A stretch of DNA of 64,000 nucleotides from Oceaniglobus trochenteri (GTDB lineage: Bacteria; Pseudomonadota; Alphaproteobacteria; Rhodobacterales; Rhodobacteraceae). The DNA lies in the NCBI RefSeq assembly GCF_020529025.1, contig NZ_JACNMM010000002.1, positions 124,001 through 188,000 of the forward strand, read 5' to 3'. The position numbers were made by a program, and so were the translations under genes. The notes under the pieces were generated by a model. It did not search any database. It saw only the letters and a program-made list of their open reading frames with translations, and was not told the origin of the DNA. Positions 24,681 to 53,477 of the stretch are shown piece after piece. How positions within the stretch are numbered: position 1 is the first letter of the stretch; every line of letters starts with the position of its first letter.

Positions 24681-24952
24681 GCGTGCCGATGCCCCCTCCC
24701 CTTGAGCGTGCCTGGCTGGCGCTGATCCTGCTGAGCGGTGCCAGCACCGTTCTGGCCGAACTGGTGGATAGCGGGTTCGACACCCGGATCACCGGCAGCA
24801 TCGTGATGCTGCTGGCCTTTCTCAAGGCGCGGGTGATCCTGTCGCGCTACCTTGGCCTTGCCGCCGCACCCCGGTGGCGCGGCGGTTTCAATCTCTGCCT
24901 CGGGCTGTTCTGCATCGCGCTGCTGGGGCTTTACCTCGCCCCGGCGCTCTAA
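24677..24952 (+). CDS. norF: NorF-like small membrane protein
   Basis: A protein of about 91 residues with three hydrophobic segments (LALILLSGASTVLAELV, ITGSIVMLLAFLKARVIL and LCLGLFCIALLGLYLAPAL). This fits NorF and the cytochrome oxidase subunit IV-like group, including the FLKARVIL segment. The likely start is GTG 24677, in a GTGA overlap with the norE stop; ATG 24689 is the alternative. It ends 6 bases from the convergent metK stop. Confidence 0.75.
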   Translation: MSVPMPPPLERAWLALILLSGASTVLAELVDSGFDTRITGSIVMLLAFLKARVILSRYLGLAAAPRWRGGFNLCLGLFCIALLGLYLAPAL

Positions 24953-26146: not shown

Positions 26147-26193
26147 GTGCTCCATTCAATTGCACCCGACGCGCCAGGAAGCCGTTGCGCGGG
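26147..26193 (-). promoter_or_regulatory. SAM/SAH riboswitch in the metK leader
   Basis: The minus-strand leader contains the core AACGGCUUCCUGGC, closed by a stem in which CCCG-CGC pairs with GCG-U-CGGG (one bulged U). It is followed by an AAUGGAGCA segment that includes the metK Shine-Dalgarno. Core, closing helix and pseudoknot partner (GGCUUCC with GGAGC) match what I recall of the SAM/SAH riboswitch, known from Rhodobacterales metK leaders. Ligand binding should hide the ribosome site. Confidence 0.92.
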
Positions 26194-26229
26194 CATTGAG
26201 GTGGCGGTTACACCCCCTGCGCCGCCGGT

Positions 26230-44899: not shown

Positions 44900-46606
44900 C
44901 TAGGCCATGGGTTCGCCGCGGCGCACCGCTTCGGCCACCTCGGCGATGGCCTCGGCGCTCAGCCCGTAAACCTCTTGCGCCACCTGCGCCGAGATATAGC
45001 CGCGCGCCAGGTCACGCTTTACCGCCGCCACGTCGCGCGCTTTGGGATCGCCGTACCCGGCCCCCCCCGGCAAGGCCAGCATCACCCGCCGCCCATGGGG
45101 GACGAACTGCTTGCCCTTGCCGCGCATCTTCGCGCCGTCGTCGCGGGCGATGGTGGTTGCGCCGCCGGGGTGCCCGCCCTGGCGGCCCCGCGCCGGGTGA
45201 TCCACCCGGTCGAACATCGCCTGGAAGTCGAACTCGTGCCCCTCGCGGGCGCCGACCTCCATGTATTGCCCAAGGCCCCCGCGCCGCTGGCCGGCGCCGC
45301 CGCTGTCGGGGCGCAGCTCCTTGCGCCAGATGATGACGGGACCGGCGTGTTCCGTCGCCTCGATGGGCATGGTCATGACGCCCGAGGGAAAGGCGGTGGC
45401 GTTCAGCCCGTCGAATTCCGGCCGCGCCCCCGCCCCGCCTGAGTTGAAGGCCAGAACCTCGGAGCGGATGGCATCGCGCGGTGCGGGCTCATCGGTGCGC
45501 GGGCGCAGCGAGACCTGGAAGTTGCACAGGCACCCCGCCCCTTCGGCGGGAACGACTCCCGGCAATATCTGGTCCAGCGCGGCATAGACCGTGTCGGGCA
45601 CGAAATGGCCGATGATATGGCGCAGGGCCACGGGTGCGGGATGCACAGCGTTCACGATGGTACCTTCGGGCGCAACCATTTCAAAGGGCGCCAGGGATGC
45701 GGCATTGTTGGGAATTTCCGGCGCGATGGCACATTTCAGCGCATAGCAGGCATAGGCCTTGGCATAGACCTTGGGGCAGTTGATGCCCTTGCGGTCCACC
45801 GGCGAGGTACCCTCGAAATCCGAAACGATGCGGTCTTCCCCGATGGTCAGGGTGACGCGCAGGGTGATCGGGGTGTCAAAGCCGTCGATCACCATCTCGC
45901 CCGTGGCAGTTTCACGGGGCAGCGCCGCGATCCGTTCCAACGTGGCGCGGCGGGAGTTGTCGAAGATGAAATCGGCCAGGCCCGCAAGATCGTCCAGCGC
46001 GAATTCGCCCATCATGTCGATCAGGCGGCGATGGCCGATCTCGTTGCAACTGGCCAGGGCGTAGAGATCGCCGATCAGCTGATCGGGTTCGCGCACGTTG
46101 CCCCGCACGATGCGCAGCAGGGTGGCATCGACCTTCCCACGCTCGGCGAACTTCATGATCGGAACATACAGCCCCTCTTCATAGACGCTGGCCCCGTCGG
46201 CACCGAAACCCCGGCCGCCCACATCCACCACATGGGCCGTACAGGCGAAAAAGCCCACCAGCGCGCCCTTGTGAAACGACGGGCTGACCACGGTGAAATC
46301 GTGCAGGTGGCCGGTGCCCTCCCAGGGGTCGTTGGTCAGATAGACATCGCCCTCGTGGATATTGTCGCGCCCGATGCGGCGGATGAAATGGGCCACGGCA
46401 TCGGCCATGGCGTTGACGTGGCCGGGCGTGCCGGTCACCGCCTGGGCCAGCATCCGGCCCTCCACGTCATAGACGCCGGCGGAAAGATCGCCCGCTTCGC
46501 GCACGCTGGTGGAAAAGGCGGTGCGCACCAGCGCCTGCGCCTGTTCCTCGACGACCGAGATCAGGCGGTTCCACATGACCTGGTAGGCAACGGTTGAATG
46601 GCTCAT
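44900..46606 (-). CDS. hyuB: Hydantoinase B/5-oxoprolinase family subunit
   Basis: A 568-residue cytosolic subunit of the ATP-dependent hydantoinase/oxoprolinase type. Characteristic stretches are YLTNDPWEGTGHLHDFTVV near residue 90, NCPKVYAKAYACYALKC, the long glycine-rich PDSGGAGQRRGGLGQ, and ALPGGAGYGDPKARD near the C-terminus. Its ATG overlaps the hyuA stop by 4 bases, so the two subunits are made in a coupled way. The substrate (hydantoin, 5-oxoproline, N-methylhydantoin or acetone-like) cannot be decided from sequence. Confidence 0.92.
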   Translation of the reverse strand: MSHSTVAYQVMWNRLISVVEEQAQALVRTAFSTSVREAGDLSAGVYDVEGRMLAQAVTGTPGHVNAMADAVAHFIRRIGRDNIHEGDVYLTNDPWEGTGHLHDFTVVSPSFHKGALVGFFACTAHVVDVGGRGFGADGASVYEEGLYVPIMKFAERGKVDATLLRIVRGNVREPDQLIGDLYALASCNEIGHRRLIDMMGEFALDDLAGLADFIFDNSRRATLERIAALPRETATGEMVIDGFDTPITLRVTLTIGEDRIVSDFEGTSPVDRKGINCPKVYAKAYACYALKCAIAPEIPNNAASLAPFEMVAPEGTIVNAVHPAPVALRHIIGHFVPDTVYAALDQILPGVVPAEGAGCLCNFQVSLRPRTDEPAPRDAIRSEVLAFNSGGAGARPEFDGLNATAFPSGVMTMPIEATEHAGPVIIWRKELRPDSGGAGQRRGGLGQYMEVGAREGHEFDFQAMFDRVDHPARGRQGGHPGGATTIARDDGAKMRGKGKQFVPHGRRVMLALPGGAGYGDPKARDVAAVKRDLARGYISAQVAQEVYGLSAEAIAEVAEAVRRGEPMA

Positions 46607-48690
46607 GCCCGGGCTCCTTTCGGTGCGATCTCCAGCGTTCCGTCACCCAGGGCCAGCGCGCGGCGGCTGGCGGGAACGACGACGGTTGTTTCATCCTCGA
46701 CGATCAGGGCCGGGCCGTCGACCGTGCTGCCGGGGGCCATTGCGCTGCGGGCGACGACGCGGGCGTCGTTGCGGCGCGCCTCGGCCGGGTCGAACAGGGC
46801 GCGGCGGCCCTGTTCGGGGGCCGCCTGCCCCGGCGCGGTATCGGCCAGCCGTTCGACCGGCGCGGGCGGCGTCGTGGCGTTCACCGACCAGACGGTGATT
46901 TCAACATCCATGCCCGCCACGGTGCGCCCGAACAGCTTTTCATAGTCCGCCTCAAACAGCCGCAGGAAGGTGTCGGGGTCGGGGGTTTCGGCCTCGGCCG
47001 CGCTCAGGATCACCGGAATCTCCCAGCCCTGCCCGGAATAGCGCATGTAGACCTTGTATTCGCAAAGGATGTCGCTCTGCGCATCGCAGCCGCGCACGAA
47101 ACCCGTCGCCTCGTCCCGCAGTTCGGCCAGAAGCGCGGCAATGCGGGAAGGGTCGAATTCGGACAGGCGCATATAGACCGAGCGGTTGGATTCGAAACTG
47201 AAGGGCGCCCGCAGGAACCCGATGGCCGAGCCCACGCCGGCCCCCTGGGGCACAAGAAGGCGCGCGACCCCCAGCTTTTCGCACAACCGCCCGGCATGCA
47301 GGGGCGCGGCACCGCCAAAGGCGATCATCGTGTAATGCGACAGGTCTTCGCCGTTCTCCACCGCGTGGACGCGGGCGGCGTTGGCCATGTTCTCGTCCAC
47401 CACCTCGGCCAGGCCGAAGGCGGCCTCGTCCTCGTCCATGCCCAGCGGTTCGCCCAGGTGTTCGGCCAGCGCCCCGAGCGACAGGTCTGGGTGCAGGCGG
47501 ATCGACCCGGCGGCGAAATTCTCGGGGTCCAGCTTGCCCAGCACCAGGTCGGCATCCGTTACCGCCGGACGGGCTCCGCCGCGGCCATAGCAGGCGGGCC
47601 CGGGTTCGGACCCGGCGCTTTCCGGGCCGACGCGGATCTGGCGCATGGCGTCCACATGGGCCAGCGATCCGCCCCCGGCACCGATTTCCACCATGTCGAT
47701 CACGGGAATCGAGATCGGCATCCCCGACCCCTTCTTGAAGCGATAGGTGCGCGCCACCTCGAACACCCGGCTGGTTTTGGGCGTCTGGTTCTTGATCAGA
47801 CAGATCTTGGCCGTGGTGCCGCCCATGTCAAACGACAGCACCTTGTCGATCCCGTGCCGCGCGGCGATGTCGGCGGCAAAGACGGCGCCCCCCGCCGGCC
47901 CCGATTCCACCAGCCGCACCGGGAATTCGGCCGCGTTCTCGATGGAAATGATCCCGCCGCCCGAGTGCATCAGGAAGATGTCGCAGCCCACACCTTCCTC
48001 CTTCAGCCGCCCCTTCAGCCGGCCGAGATAGGATTTCATCAGCGGCTTGATATAGGCATTGGCCACCACGGTGTTGAACCGTTCGTATTCGCGCATCTGC
48101 GGGCTGACCTCGCAGGACAGCGACACCATGACATTCGGCAGACGCTGGGCCAGGATGTCGCCCACCATGCGTTCGTGGGCATCGTTCAGGTAGGAATGGA
48201 TCAGCCCCACCGCGACACTTTCATAACCGCCCTCGGCAATCCGGTCGGCCAGGCCCTCGATGGCCGCGCGGTCAGGCGCAATCAGGACGTCACCGCGAGC
48301 ATCCACCCGCTCGGACAGGGTGAAACGCATGTGGCGCGGCAACAGGGGCTGGGGCAGCTCAAGGTTCAGGTCGTATTGTTCGAACCGCGATTCCGTTCGC
48401 ATTTCAATGACATCGCGGAAACCCTCGGTCGTGATTAGCGCGGTCTTCGCGCCGCGCCGTTCGATCAGGGCATTGGTGGCCAGGGTGGTGCCATGGATGA
48501 TCTGCCCGATGTCCCCGGGCGCGATTCCCGCCTTGGCACAGACCTGCCCCATGCCATCGACGATCGCATCCTCGGGCGCGCCATAGGTGGTCAGAACCTT
48601 GGTCGAAAAGCTGCCCCTGTCCGTTTCAAGCACCACGTCGGTAAAGGTACCGCCGATGTCCACGCCCAACCGGTTGATCGTCTGCGCCAT
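46603..48690 (-). CDS. hyuA: Hydantoinase A/5-oxoprolinase family subunit
   Basis: A 695-residue ATPase-type subunit that pairs with HyuB. The N-terminal phosphate-binding sequence LGVDIGGTFTDVVLE, the HGTTLATNALIER motif, VLSFDMGGTTAKICLI and the AFGGAAPLHAG segment are diagnostic for the family. ATG 48690 follows GGGGGCG; the frame extends 23 codons upstream without support. hyuA-hyuB is a two-gene unit, with no regulator or transporter directly attached apart from the nearby TSUP permease. Confidence 0.93.
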   Translation of the reverse strand: MAQTINRLGVDIGGTFTDVVLETDRGSFSTKVLTTYGAPEDAIVDGMGQVCAKAGIAPGDIGQIIHGTTLATNALIERRGAKTALITTEGFRDVIEMRTESRFEQYDLNLELPQPLLPRHMRFTLSERVDARGDVLIAPDRAAIEGLADRIAEGGYESVAVGLIHSYLNDAHERMVGDILAQRLPNVMVSLSCEVSPQMREYERFNTVVANAYIKPLMKSYLGRLKGRLKEEGVGCDIFLMHSGGGIISIENAAEFPVRLVESGPAGGAVFAADIAARHGIDKVLSFDMGGTTAKICLIKNQTPKTSRVFEVARTYRFKKGSGMPISIPVIDMVEIGAGGGSLAHVDAMRQIRVGPESAGSEPGPACYGRGGARPAVTDADLVLGKLDPENFAAGSIRLHPDLSLGALAEHLGEPLGMDEDEAAFGLAEVVDENMANAARVHAVENGEDLSHYTMIAFGGAAPLHAGRLCEKLGVARLLVPQGAGVGSAIGFLRAPFSFESNRSVYMRLSEFDPSRIAALLAELRDEATGFVRGCDAQSDILCEYKVYMRYSGQGWEIPVILSAAEAETPDPDTFLRLFEADYEKLFGRTVAGMDVEITVWSVNATTPPAPVERLADTAPGQAAPEQGRRALFDPAEARRNDARVVARSAMAPGSTVDGPALIVEDETTVVVPASRRALALGDGTLEIAPKGARA

Positions 48691-48814
48691 GTCGCCCCCA
48701 TTTCGTTGCACCGCAAGTTGTACGCCGCGACATGAGGGTTTCCAATGGCCTGTTCGCATGGCCCGAAAGGCAATTGCCCAACGAACGACAGCCTGCTAGA
48801 TCGTGCGACGGCAG

Positions 48815-48891
48815 GCTCCCTTAGCTCAACTGGATAGAGCAGTCGACTTCTAATCGACAGGTTGAGGGTTCGAGTCCTTCAGGGAGCGCCA
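48815..48891 (+). tRNA. tRNA-Arg (anticodon UCU)
   Basis: A complete 77-base cloverleaf with encoded CCA: acceptor stem GCTCCCT/AGGGAGC, D stem GCTC/GAGC, anticodon stem GTCGA/TCGAC with loop CTTCTAA, and T stem GAGGG/CCTTC with loop TTCGAGT. The anticodon TCT reads AGA codons for arginine. There is no integrase or direct repeat next to it, so no sign that it serves as an attachment site. Confidence 0.97.
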
Positions 48892-49039: not shown

Positions 49040-49351
49040 TCAGTGGGTCCAGGCGCCGCGGCGGGCGGTGGCGAAGTTCTCGCCGTAGCCGCCGGCGCGG
49101 ATGTTGGCGCCGCGTTCGCGCGGTTCGGCCACCACGGCGTCGATGCCGTTGTCGCGGGCATATTCAAGCGCGGCCTCGCGGGATTCGAAGCGCAGCCGCA
49201 CCTGGGCCTGGGTATCGTCGCTGCTGGTCCAGCCCATCAGCGGATCGACCTCGCGCGCGGTGCTTGGCACAAACTCCAGCACCCAGGCATGGGTGCGTGC
49301 CATGCCCGAGGACATGGCCGTCTTTGCTGGTTTGAAAATGCGCGCGTTCAT
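49040..49351 (-). CDS. NADH dehydrogenase accessory subunit, NDUFS4-like
   Basis: A 103-residue protein of the ETC complex I subunit (NDUFS4/18 kDa) family, an alphaproteobacterial and mitochondrial accessory subunit on the complex I peripheral arm. It begins [14 protein letters not shown], which matches the family, followed by [35 protein letters not shown] and AAN-like [16 protein letters not shown] at the end. It stands alone next to tRNA-Arg; the nuo operon is not in the window. Confidence 0.93.
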
Positions 49352-49401
49352 ATCCCGGCTCCCAGTGTTGTGCGCCTTGGATTATTGGACAAGGATCGGT
49401 G

Positions 49402-49512
49402 AAAAGCAAGGCCCCTGAGGGGAGGAAAGCGCTGACTGCCGAAGATCTCACAGGGTGAGCGAGGGGGTGGGAAAAGCGAAGACTTCGGCAGTCAGGCCTT
49501 GCTGCTTGCCCC
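49402..49512 (-). ncRNA. Candidate structured small RNA
   Basis: A perfect 13-bp inverted repeat (CTGACTGCCGAAG at 49432-49444 with 49483-49495) is extended by a second perfect 8-bp pair (AGCAAGGC at 49405-49412 with 49496-49503). The 3' arm is thus continuous over 21 bases, while the other side has a 19-base insertion. The central loop holds a third small hairpin (CTCAC/GTGAG at 49447-49459). On the minus strand the loops are C-rich (CCCACCCCCUC, UUCCUCCCCUC), like anti-Shine-Dalgarno small RNAs, and the structure ends in a TTTTC run. The strand choice is tentative. Confidence 0.5.
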
Positions 49513-49549
49513 ATCAGTTAGACATGTCATGCGGCAGGGTGCAAGCATA

Positions 49550-49570
49550 AATACAACCTAAAGTTGTATT
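49550..49570. promoter_or_regulatory. Inverted repeat in the uvrB upstream region
   Basis: AATACAAC (49550-49557) and GTTGTATT (49563-49570) form a perfect 8-bp inverted repeat with a 5-base centre. It stands in the divergent region between the complex I subunit gene and uvrB, 186 bases before the uvrB ATG. It looks like a dimeric regulator site; the regulator is unknown. The rest of the gene-free stretch 49352-49755, apart from the candidate small RNA, shows no feature. I found no alphaproteobacterial LexA-type site. Confidence 0.45.
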
Positions 49571-49755
49571 GAGGCCGGGATCGCCCGCAATGGCGCAAAA
49601 TCGGCGGCATCATGCAAAGGCCATCGACAGTTTCGGCAAATTTCCGCGCCGCGCCCGGTTTCATCCGCCCCCGACGCCGGACACCGGGCCTTCGGGGAAA
49701 GGTTGAAGTCGGCGGCAAACACATCACTTATGGGGCATTGCCAAAGGAATCGCCC

Positions 49756-51929
<2,174 letters not shown>

Positions 51930-51933
<4 letters not shown>

Positions 51934-52961
51934 CCGTCGCCGGTGGACTGCGCCAGCCGCAGCGCCGGGGTGATGCTGATGGTTTGCGGGCCGTCTGGCG
52001 CGGTGCCGGCCCTCAGCGCCAGCAGCAGTTCGGCGGTGCGCGCCCCGATCCGCCCGGGCAGCGGGTCGATGGTGGTCAGGGTCGGCACGCAGATCGCGGC
52101 AACCTCGAAAGCACCGAAACCGGCGATAGCCAGATCCTCGGGCACGCGGATGCCGCGCCGCATGCATTCGGTCAGCGCCCCGAAGGCCGATTGGTCGGCC
52201 ACGCAGACCACCGCCTGGGTGTCGGGATGTTCCGCCATGATCCGCGTCAGCGCCCTGGCCCCGCTTTGCATCGAGGCGGGCGACCGCCCCACCCCGGCGG
52301 CGCGCCCGGCGTCAAGTCCGTGGCGCCGCATCGCCCGCAGGAAGCCGCGCTTGCGGTCGGCGCCGCGGGTGTCCTGCTCGGGGTCGCCGCCGATGAAGGC
52401 GATCCGCCGATACCCCTTTGCCACAAGGTGATCGACCATGTCCTCGATGCAACCCGCGTTGGAAAACCCCACGACATGGCCGATGGGATCGGCCGGCAGG
52501 TCCCAGATCTCGACCACCGGGATTCCGGCGTTGCCCAGAAGGCGGCGGGTGCGCGGCGTATGGGTGCCGCCGGTCACCACGATGGCTTCGGGGCGGCGGC
52601 GCAGAAGCTGCTCGATCAGGCGCTCTTCCTCGTCCACGTCGTAATTGTCATAGCCCAGAAGCACCTGCAGCCCCTCACCCGCCAGACCGCGCGACAGGGC
52701 ATCGACCGTATCGGCAAAGTTGGCATTGCTGAGGGTCGGGATCGTCACCGCGACGAAATCGGATTTCTGCGCCCGCAGGTTCGCCGCCATGACATCGAAG
52801 ACATATCCCATCTCCTCGGCCACCGCGTGAATCCGGGCGCGGGTTTCGCTGTTCACCGATGTATCGGCCTTGAAGGCGCGGCTGACCGTCATCACCGACA
52901 CGCCCGCGGCGCGGGCCACGTCCTTCATGGTGACGGGTTTCGGGTTCGGGGGGCGGGCCAT
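51930..52961 (-). CDS. gntR: LacI family repressor, probably GntR of gluconate use
   Basis: A 343-residue LacI/GalR-family regulator. The N-terminal helix-turn-helix and hinge ([20 protein letters not shown], then [17 protein letters not shown]) is followed by a periplasmic-binding-type sensor domain. It lies 15 bases downstream of gntK on the same strand, which makes gluconate or a derivative the likely inducer. A LacI-type operator stands in front of gntK (53504-53519). The 3' end overlaps the uvrB stop by 4 bases (convergent). Confidence 0.88.
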
Positions 52962-52976: not shown

Positions 52977-53477
52977 TCAGGCGCGCCGCGCGGCCAGTTG
53001 CGCCGCCAGATCGGCGACGATCCGTTCCGCCGAAGGTCCGATGTCGACATGGATGAACGCCTCGTCAGGCTGGGGCGGTTCCAGCGCCGCGAACTGGCTG
53101 TCCAGCAGCGAGGGCGGCATGAAGTGATCCTTGCGCGCCGCCATGCGTTCGGCAATCAGGGCGCGGCTCCCGGCGAGATGCAGAAACATGACGGGCCGCC
53201 CGGTGGCAGCGCGAATGCGGTCGCGGTAGATGCGTTTGAGGGCCGAACAGCCGATGATCGTGGTGCCCGCCCCGGCCCCCAGCGCCACGCCCACCCGGTC
53301 AAGCCAGGGCCAGCGGTCTTCGTCCTCAAGCGGGGTGCCCGATGCCATCTTCGCCACGTTTTCGGCCGGGTGCAGATCATCGCCGTCGATGAAGGTGGCC
53401 CCCATCGCCGCGCCCAGCCCCTGCCCGATCGAGGTCTTGCCGCAGCCCGACACCCCCATGACGACAAATCTGTCCAT
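52977..53477 (-). CDS. gntK: Gluconokinase
   Basis: Cytosolic kinase that makes 6-phosphogluconate. The 166-residue protein has the P-loop GVSGCGKTSIG at residues 8-18 and the family motifs FIDGDDLHP, MASGTPLEDEDRWPWLD, CSALKRIYRD and FMPPSLLDSQF. ATG 53477 follows a strong AGGAGG. gntR follows, so the pair is a small self-regulated operon. No gluconate permease is in the window. Confidence 0.95.
   Translation of the reverse strand: MDRFVVMGVSGCGKTSIGQGLGAAMGATFIDGDDLHPAENVAKMASGTPLEDEDRWPWLDRVGVALGAGAGTTIIGCSALKRIYRDRIRAATGRPVMFLHLAGSRALIAERMAARKDHFMPPSLLDSQFAALEPPQPDEAFIHVDIGPSAERIVADLAAQLAARRA

Follow-up and report, generated by a model that had tools for sequence, protein, structure and literature searches.

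A stretch of 64,000 nucleotides (nt) from Oceaniglobus trochenteri (contig NZ_JACNMM010000002.1, positions 124,001 to 188,000; referred to here as the window) carries, between uvrB and a gene for an NDUFS4-like complex I protein, a folded element that is very probably a small RNA (sRNA) gene of about 80 nt and a member of a structured RNA family, to judge from its comparison with related sequences. We hypothesize, with a probability of roughly 0.55, that this gene, on the minus strand, is transcribed independently and that its RNA acts in trans (Table 1). An earlier note, made from the letters of the window alone, had proposed a small RNA on that strand of this intergenic region, and the proposal is supported by a family model, by covariation and by a constant gene context.

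The family was collected by way of the NDUFS4-like protein, the best 80 of 324 relatives and six sequences from the same genus giving 86 loci, and the same architecture could be read in the upstream regions of 17 of them. In an alignment of these 17 relatives (A1; made with MAFFT from sequence only and not fitted to structure), pairing is preserved through changes of both partners in 13 of the 15 stem pairs, so that the conservation of the stem in relatives, which the earlier note had set as a test of its own reading, is indeed found. Within A1, 88.4% of cells are paired, compared with 65.6% after shuffling (0 of 500 shuffles as high) and 19.0–47.9% when slid, and an unguided RNAalifold prediction recovered 12 of the 15 pairs, plus three others. 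A covariance model built from the 17 seeds (R1) matched 18 of the 86 NDUFS4 loci at E < 1e-4, all 17 seeds included, leaving 68 without a match at this cut. Of 394 family genomes searched with it, 159 matched, each of them once (158 of 393 genera). From these 159 we studied 110 loci, a non-random set of mostly top scorers (30 supplied, one of them the window, and 80 fetched), some of which come from the same genomes as the seed loci; all 110 were recovered on re-search (96 + 14). An alignment of 96 sequences, which was fitted to R1 and is thus biased toward the structure of the model, has double changes in all 15 pairs and 88.7% of its cells paired, compared with 70.5% after shuffling.

A second covariance model, R2, was built from the 96 sequences and carried to wider samples. 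With either model, samples of more than 40 genomes were searched with stricter filters, under which weak matches are lost. Matches were obtained in 79 of the 244 genomes of an order sample, every one of them Rhodobacteraceae; the non-matching genomes shown belong to the same family, and the sample carries little information on other families. Two of 385 genomes matched in a class sample. One was the window's own genome and the other gave a match of 34.5 bits (G673) that we judge to be due to chance, as it falls within an open reading frame whose product has dihydroorotate-dehydrogenase and ferredoxin domains. When R2 was applied to 40 genomes (36 of the family without an R1 match and four of the same genus), 19 of them matched at E values up to 1, including three known same-genus copies and one diverged copy (G012, 34.3 bits) between uvrB and NDUFS4; the next best had an E value of 0.015, and none of the 12 remaining loci checked lies beside NDUFS4. 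The RNA looks like a feature of the Rhodobacteraceae, many genera of which have no detectable copy. In one genome of the same genus as the window (G001; locus L123) no copy could be detected, whether in front of NDUFS4 or at any other place, an apparent loss.

The two arms of the conserved stem, CTGACTGCCGAAG and CTTCGGCAGTCAG, form a perfect inverted repeat of 13 base pairs (bp) in the window, and this stem is a feature of the family. The earlier note had described the repeat correctly, together with a second perfect one that shares a continuous arm with it; the second is of 9 bp (49405–49413 and 49495–49503) rather than the 8 bp given there, and this outer stem is not shared by the family in general. 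At least 6 nt complementary to the 5' end are found within 70 nt downstream in 32 of 110 loci, compared with 8.6 in shuffled sequences (here, as in the promoter and anti-Shine–Dalgarno tests below, shuffling kept base composition and nothing more), an excess that may be due in part to the CTTGC of the next promoter. The minus strand from 49390 to 49525 folds at −50.9 kcal/mol, whereas its dinucleotide shuffles average −37.3 kcal/mol (standard deviation 3.5) and none of 200 does as well (z −3.84); the plus strand gives a z of −1.65, with 13 of 200 shuffles as good. An RNA read from the plus strand was rejected on account of this weaker fold and of the promoter pattern on the minus strand. For the 81-nt RNA by itself the folding energy is −31.5 kcal/mol, a value equalled or bettered by 1479 of 4736 pieces of that length from the GC-rich window. 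Raw folding energy is therefore ordinary here, and the case for an RNA rests on comparison, that is, on covariation, single copy and fixed gene context.

The genome holds one copy, the only other R1 match reaching 15.1 bits (E 8.7). A mobile or repeated element was rejected in view of this single copy and of the lack of a match in plasmid records, phage records lying outside the search. A coding sequence was likewise rejected, since the modelled RNAs (68–89 nt) do not vary in length by threes (remainders 43, 37 and 30 among the 110 loci); reading frames overlap the RNA in 92 of 110 loci, an uninformative count. The earlier note could not assign the element to a known family, in agreement with our searches of Rfam 15 (4227 models), which found at the curated score in the whole window only tRNA and a SAM/SAH riboswitch, both elsewhere than the element, at relaxed threshold in 49300–49620 one chance match (E 3.2), and in the loci of 19 relatives tRNAs only. 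The tRNA genes are tRNA-Arg (tct; 48815–48891, plus strand) and tRNA-Ala (ggc; 24720–24796, plus strand), and the riboswitch (RF01727; 49.8 bits) lies at 26148–26196 on the minus strand.

Each of positions 1–9 of the RNA is 88–97% conserved in 109 loci. With 109 loci aligned on the first G, TTG stands at −36 or −35 in 89, and TANNNT starts at −12 in 56, the other starts from −30 to −6 being used by 0–7 loci each; TTG (−37 to −33) and TANNNT (−13 to −11) occur together in 57. This conserved spacing places the start of the RNA at GCAAGC (49509), and the RNA probably has its own sigma-70-type promoter pattern, kept at a fixed distance across relatives. Further upstream, the half site ACAAC[CT][TC] is present in 27 of 109 loci (2.1 after shuffling), mostly at −57 to −59, and the window's copy forms one half of a dyad. 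On the 3' side pyrimidines are somewhat enriched directly after the stem, and 58 of 110 loci, compared with 4.0 in shuffled sequences, have another promoter-like pattern downstream of the RNA. The TTTTC that the earlier note placed at the 3' end is present, yet it is better read as the −35 region of a probable NDUFS4 promoter, because the window has TTGCTT-17-AATAAT there and a similar pattern recurs in those 58 loci.

The loop of the conserved hairpin is C-rich on the minus strand, as had been pointed out; the second C-rich loop then named (UUCCUCCCCUC) lies 3' of the conserved hairpin. Taken over 110 loci, the loop cores consist of 65% C, 19% A, 10% U and 5% G. Exact copies of one loop type (A; CACCCCTCGCTC) are found in 62 loci and of another (B; CACCCCACCCACACTCCC) in 13, and the loop is conserved as a sequence, beyond mere richness in C. 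A conserved, unpaired and almost G-free loop has the look expected of a base-pairing loop or of a protein site. A search of 22 genomes for the 13-mer complementary to the A-type loop gave 28 places, and 22 of them are the RNA gene itself. Four of the six extra sites (L266, L268, L269 and L270) look alike and apparently lie in one gene, in antisense. Pfam identified a formyl transferase gene (presumably purN) in three of the four, on the strand opposite to the complement, and in L270 the frames tried gave no Pfam family. The formyl transferase mRNA would carry the loop's own sense and is hence not a target, and we judge the complement in the four genomes to be a codon coincidence. The B-type 13-mer complement occurs once each in nine of 13 genomes, always as the RNA gene, and the other four are without it even there. 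Long fixed targets are unlikely, and short seeds are possible.

Building on the structure, strand, probable start site, single copy and gene context seen in the sequences, we infer that the element is transcribed, that its product acts in trans and that it pairs with mRNA. Our working hypothesis is that RNA polymerase would start at the GCAAGC from the sigma-70-type promoter, yielding an RNA of at least about 80 nt, in which the conserved 5' end would be followed by a single long hairpin with an exposed C-rich, nearly G-free loop of some 20 nt. This loop, perhaps with the 5' end, would most likely pair with short G-rich stretches of mRNA, pairing with Shine–Dalgarno sequences being one possible form. 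A number of observations weigh against this hypothesis. A consensus scan of 49300–49800 on both strands found neither a sigma-70 promoter nor an intrinsic terminator, and the window's −10 box (CTAACT) is a poor match to the family pattern. No match was found in 235 of the 394 sampled family genomes, and no conserved 13-nt target complement in the right direction in the 22 A-type and 13 B-type genomes, shorter pairing lying outside that search. An intrinsic terminator follows within 200 nt of the RNA in merely five of 110 loci, so that the 3' end is unexplained, and the same-strand spacing of about 100 nt before NDUFS4 in most loci is leader-like.

The last two points favour an alternative in which the element acts in cis, as the 5' leader of the NDUFS4-like gene: the start of the RNA would be a second, upstream start of the NDUFS4 mRNA, and the hairpin would control translation or stability. 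As expected of a leader, 108 of 110 loci have NDUFS4 behind the RNA and in its orientation, within the fetched flank (median gap 100 nt, range 44–874, above 250 in six). We nevertheless regard such a leader as less likely, if still a serious contender, since other genes, long gaps or terminators split the RNA from NDUFS4 in several genomes: the gene is about 2.6 kb and 1.4 kb off in the two loci without an adjacent copy, a 243-amino-acid reading frame intervenes in L169 and an intrinsic terminator in each of L199 and L234. These cases, together with the NDUFS4 loci without a match, support independence of the RNA from NDUFS4, and the promoter-like pattern that follows the RNA in more than half of the loci also speaks against a leader. 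A divergent uvrB lies upstream in 98 of 110 loci, and a same-strand uvrB in none (the 12 loci without uvrB have 82–1500 nt of upstream sequence); of the protein-found loci, 17 of the 18 that carry the RNA have uvrB in the flank, as do 51 of the 68 without a model match. The order of uvrB and NDUFS4 is thus independent of the RNA, and the shared position needs no functional link.

A second alternative, somewhat less likely again but also a serious contender, is that the RNA serves to bind or sequester a pyrimidine-binding protein by means of the C-rich loop on its long stem; cold-shock proteins and ribosomal protein S1 are examples of such proteins. The composition and conserved sequence of the loop would suit this role, as would the failure to find a long mRNA complement, which weighs little given that the target search covered 13-nt complements.

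The anti-Shine–Dalgarno loops proposed in the earlier note were not demonstrated. Duplexes of loop and Shine–Dalgarno sequence had a mean energy of −10.5, compared with −9.6 for shuffled loops, with a median rank of 0.22 and a single loop of 110 below 0.05; for 51 A-type loops alone the values were −11.3 and −9.8, with a median rank of 0.15. The test is insensitive, as the known motif CCUCCUCCC itself ranks just 0.20. This motif is in none of the 110 modelled RNAs, the window's included, while CCUCC is in two and CUCCC in 86. According to two reports, the cuckoo RNAs (CcsR1-4 or RSs0680a of Rhodobacter sphaeroides, SmelA075 and SmelA099 of Sinorhizobium) have two to four hairpins, each with an anti-Shine–Dalgarno loop of the CCUCCUCCC kind, and the CcsR RNAs are cut from the transcript of ccaF1, a DUF1127 gene with an RpoHI/RpoHII promoter (PMC3927594, PMC10253847). 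The element resembles them as an alphaproteobacterial sRNA whose hairpin has a pyrimidine- or C-rich loop, and differs in its one hairpin, its other loop sequence, its sigma-70-like promoter pattern and its place between uvrB and NDUFS4. An RNA of the cuckoo/CcsR kind is improbable, for all the CUCCC in most RNAs, the slight mean advantage of the loops over shuffles and the three genomes (L089, L105 and L277) with a CUCCUCUCCUCCCUCCUCCC loop before NDUFS4: that no more than one loop of 110 ranks below 0.05 counts against it, even if the test misses CCUCCUCCC as well, as do the absence of CCUCCUCCC and the single conserved hairpin, and the neighbours of the element are NDUFS4-like and uvrB genes; a Pfam scan of five window proteins, with genes farther off outside it, found no DUF1127 (ccaF1-like) protein.

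Table 1. Coordinates in the window of the candidate RNA, its parts, the associated promoter elements and the flanking genes
Feature	Position	Strand	Remarks
sRNA as modelled	49429–49509	minus	81 nt, 5' end at 49509; R1 match 64.7 bits, E 5.3e-11; the window's own copy is among the 17 R1 seeds
Conserved 5' end, GCAAGCAGC	49501–49509	minus	exact in 82 of 110 loci
Conserved stem, 5' arm, CTGACTGCCGAAG	49483–49495	minus	within inverted-repeat pair I1
Conserved stem, 3' arm, CTTCGGCAGTCAG	49432–49444	minus	within inverted-repeat pair I1
C-rich loop core, CCCACCCCCTCGCTCACCC	49453–49471	minus	aligned core in alignment A1
Outer 9-bp pairing, 3' arm	49405–49413	minus	pair I4; not general in the family
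Probable −35 box of RNA promoter, TTGCAC	49539–49544	minus	pattern in relatives; missed by consensus scan
Probable −10 box of RNA promoter, CTAACT (imperfect)	49516–49521	minus	pattern in relatives
Dyad ATACAAC-N5-GTTGTAT, possible regulator site	49551–49569		perfect 7 bp; upstream of −35, within I2
Probable promoter of NDUFS4-like gene, TTGCTT-17-AATAAT	49381–49409	minus	TTGCTT 49409–49404, AATAAT 49386–49381
NDUFS4-like gene (103 amino acids)	49040–49351	minus	Pfam PF04800 NDUS4, 111.4 bits
uvrB	49756–51933	plus	Pfam UvrB_inter, UvrB, UVR and helicase domains

Beyond the two flanking genes, the neighbourhood contains, all on the minus strand, genes for a hydantoinase/oxoprolinase protein (46606–48759), a LacI-family regulator (51933–52961) and a small AAA/kinase-like protein (52980–53477).

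Comparison of loci also points to a possible third loop type. At the place of the RNA before NDUFS4, L089 (1296–1368) and L105 (1310–1382) have a hairpin with a CUCCUCUCCUCCCUCCUCCC loop, and L277 has the loop sequence at around 1500. An ad hoc scan for hairpins with C-rich loops found them in eight of the 14 RNA loci given and in three of the 68 loci without a model match, L089 and L105 among these three. Allowing at most one mismatch, the third loop type was found in two of 394 family genomes, in one (G267) between uvrB and NDUFS4 and in the other (G166) with neither gene nearby. The loop of the same gene may have been exchanged here, or the site may be occupied by an unrelated RNA; descent from the same gene rests on position before NDUFS4 in three genomes and on weak scores, 22 and 19 bits, in two. 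It is tempting to speculate, with low confidence, on a core riboregulator of the Rhodobacteraceae, an old single-copy gene whose loop has been switched among ACCCACCCCUCGCUCCC, CACCCCACCCACACUCCC and CUCCUCUCCUCCCUCCUCCC, each of which would read different G-rich mRNA sites. On this speculation the place would have been kept in all three types, and the stem and 5' end in the first two.

By its mode the RNA resembles the alphaproteobacterial sRNAs with C-rich loops, and it is in no Rfam family. Other structured RNAs of related bacteria have been described. The HRC-8-4 motif is likewise a structured RNA with many representatives that is confined to the Rhodobacterales and has no assigned function, but it lies between cco operons (PMC8632094) and so is set apart by place from the element between uvrB and the NDUFS4-like gene. 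Some intergenic sRNAs of Paracoccus denitrificans are of about 80 nt, abundant and conserved in the Rhodobacteraceae, and are thus similar in size and conservation; the accessible text gives no sequence, neighbouring genes or uvrB, and identity with one of them is neither shown nor excluded (PMC5107571). In the open literature, with supplements and most subscription papers outside it, we recognized no description of an RNA between uvrB and an NDUFS4-like gene, and an earlier sighting of the RNA by RNA-seq is quite possible.

Retained as a single-copy structured RNA by 158 of 393 sampled genera (about 40%) of a large family, and at one locus where examined, the element is under strong selection, yet it is without an entry in Rfam. 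The model, with its stem, loop and start site, can be overlaid on existing RNA-seq data from Rhodobacteraceae, and in a laboratory species the gene is a clean target for deletion.
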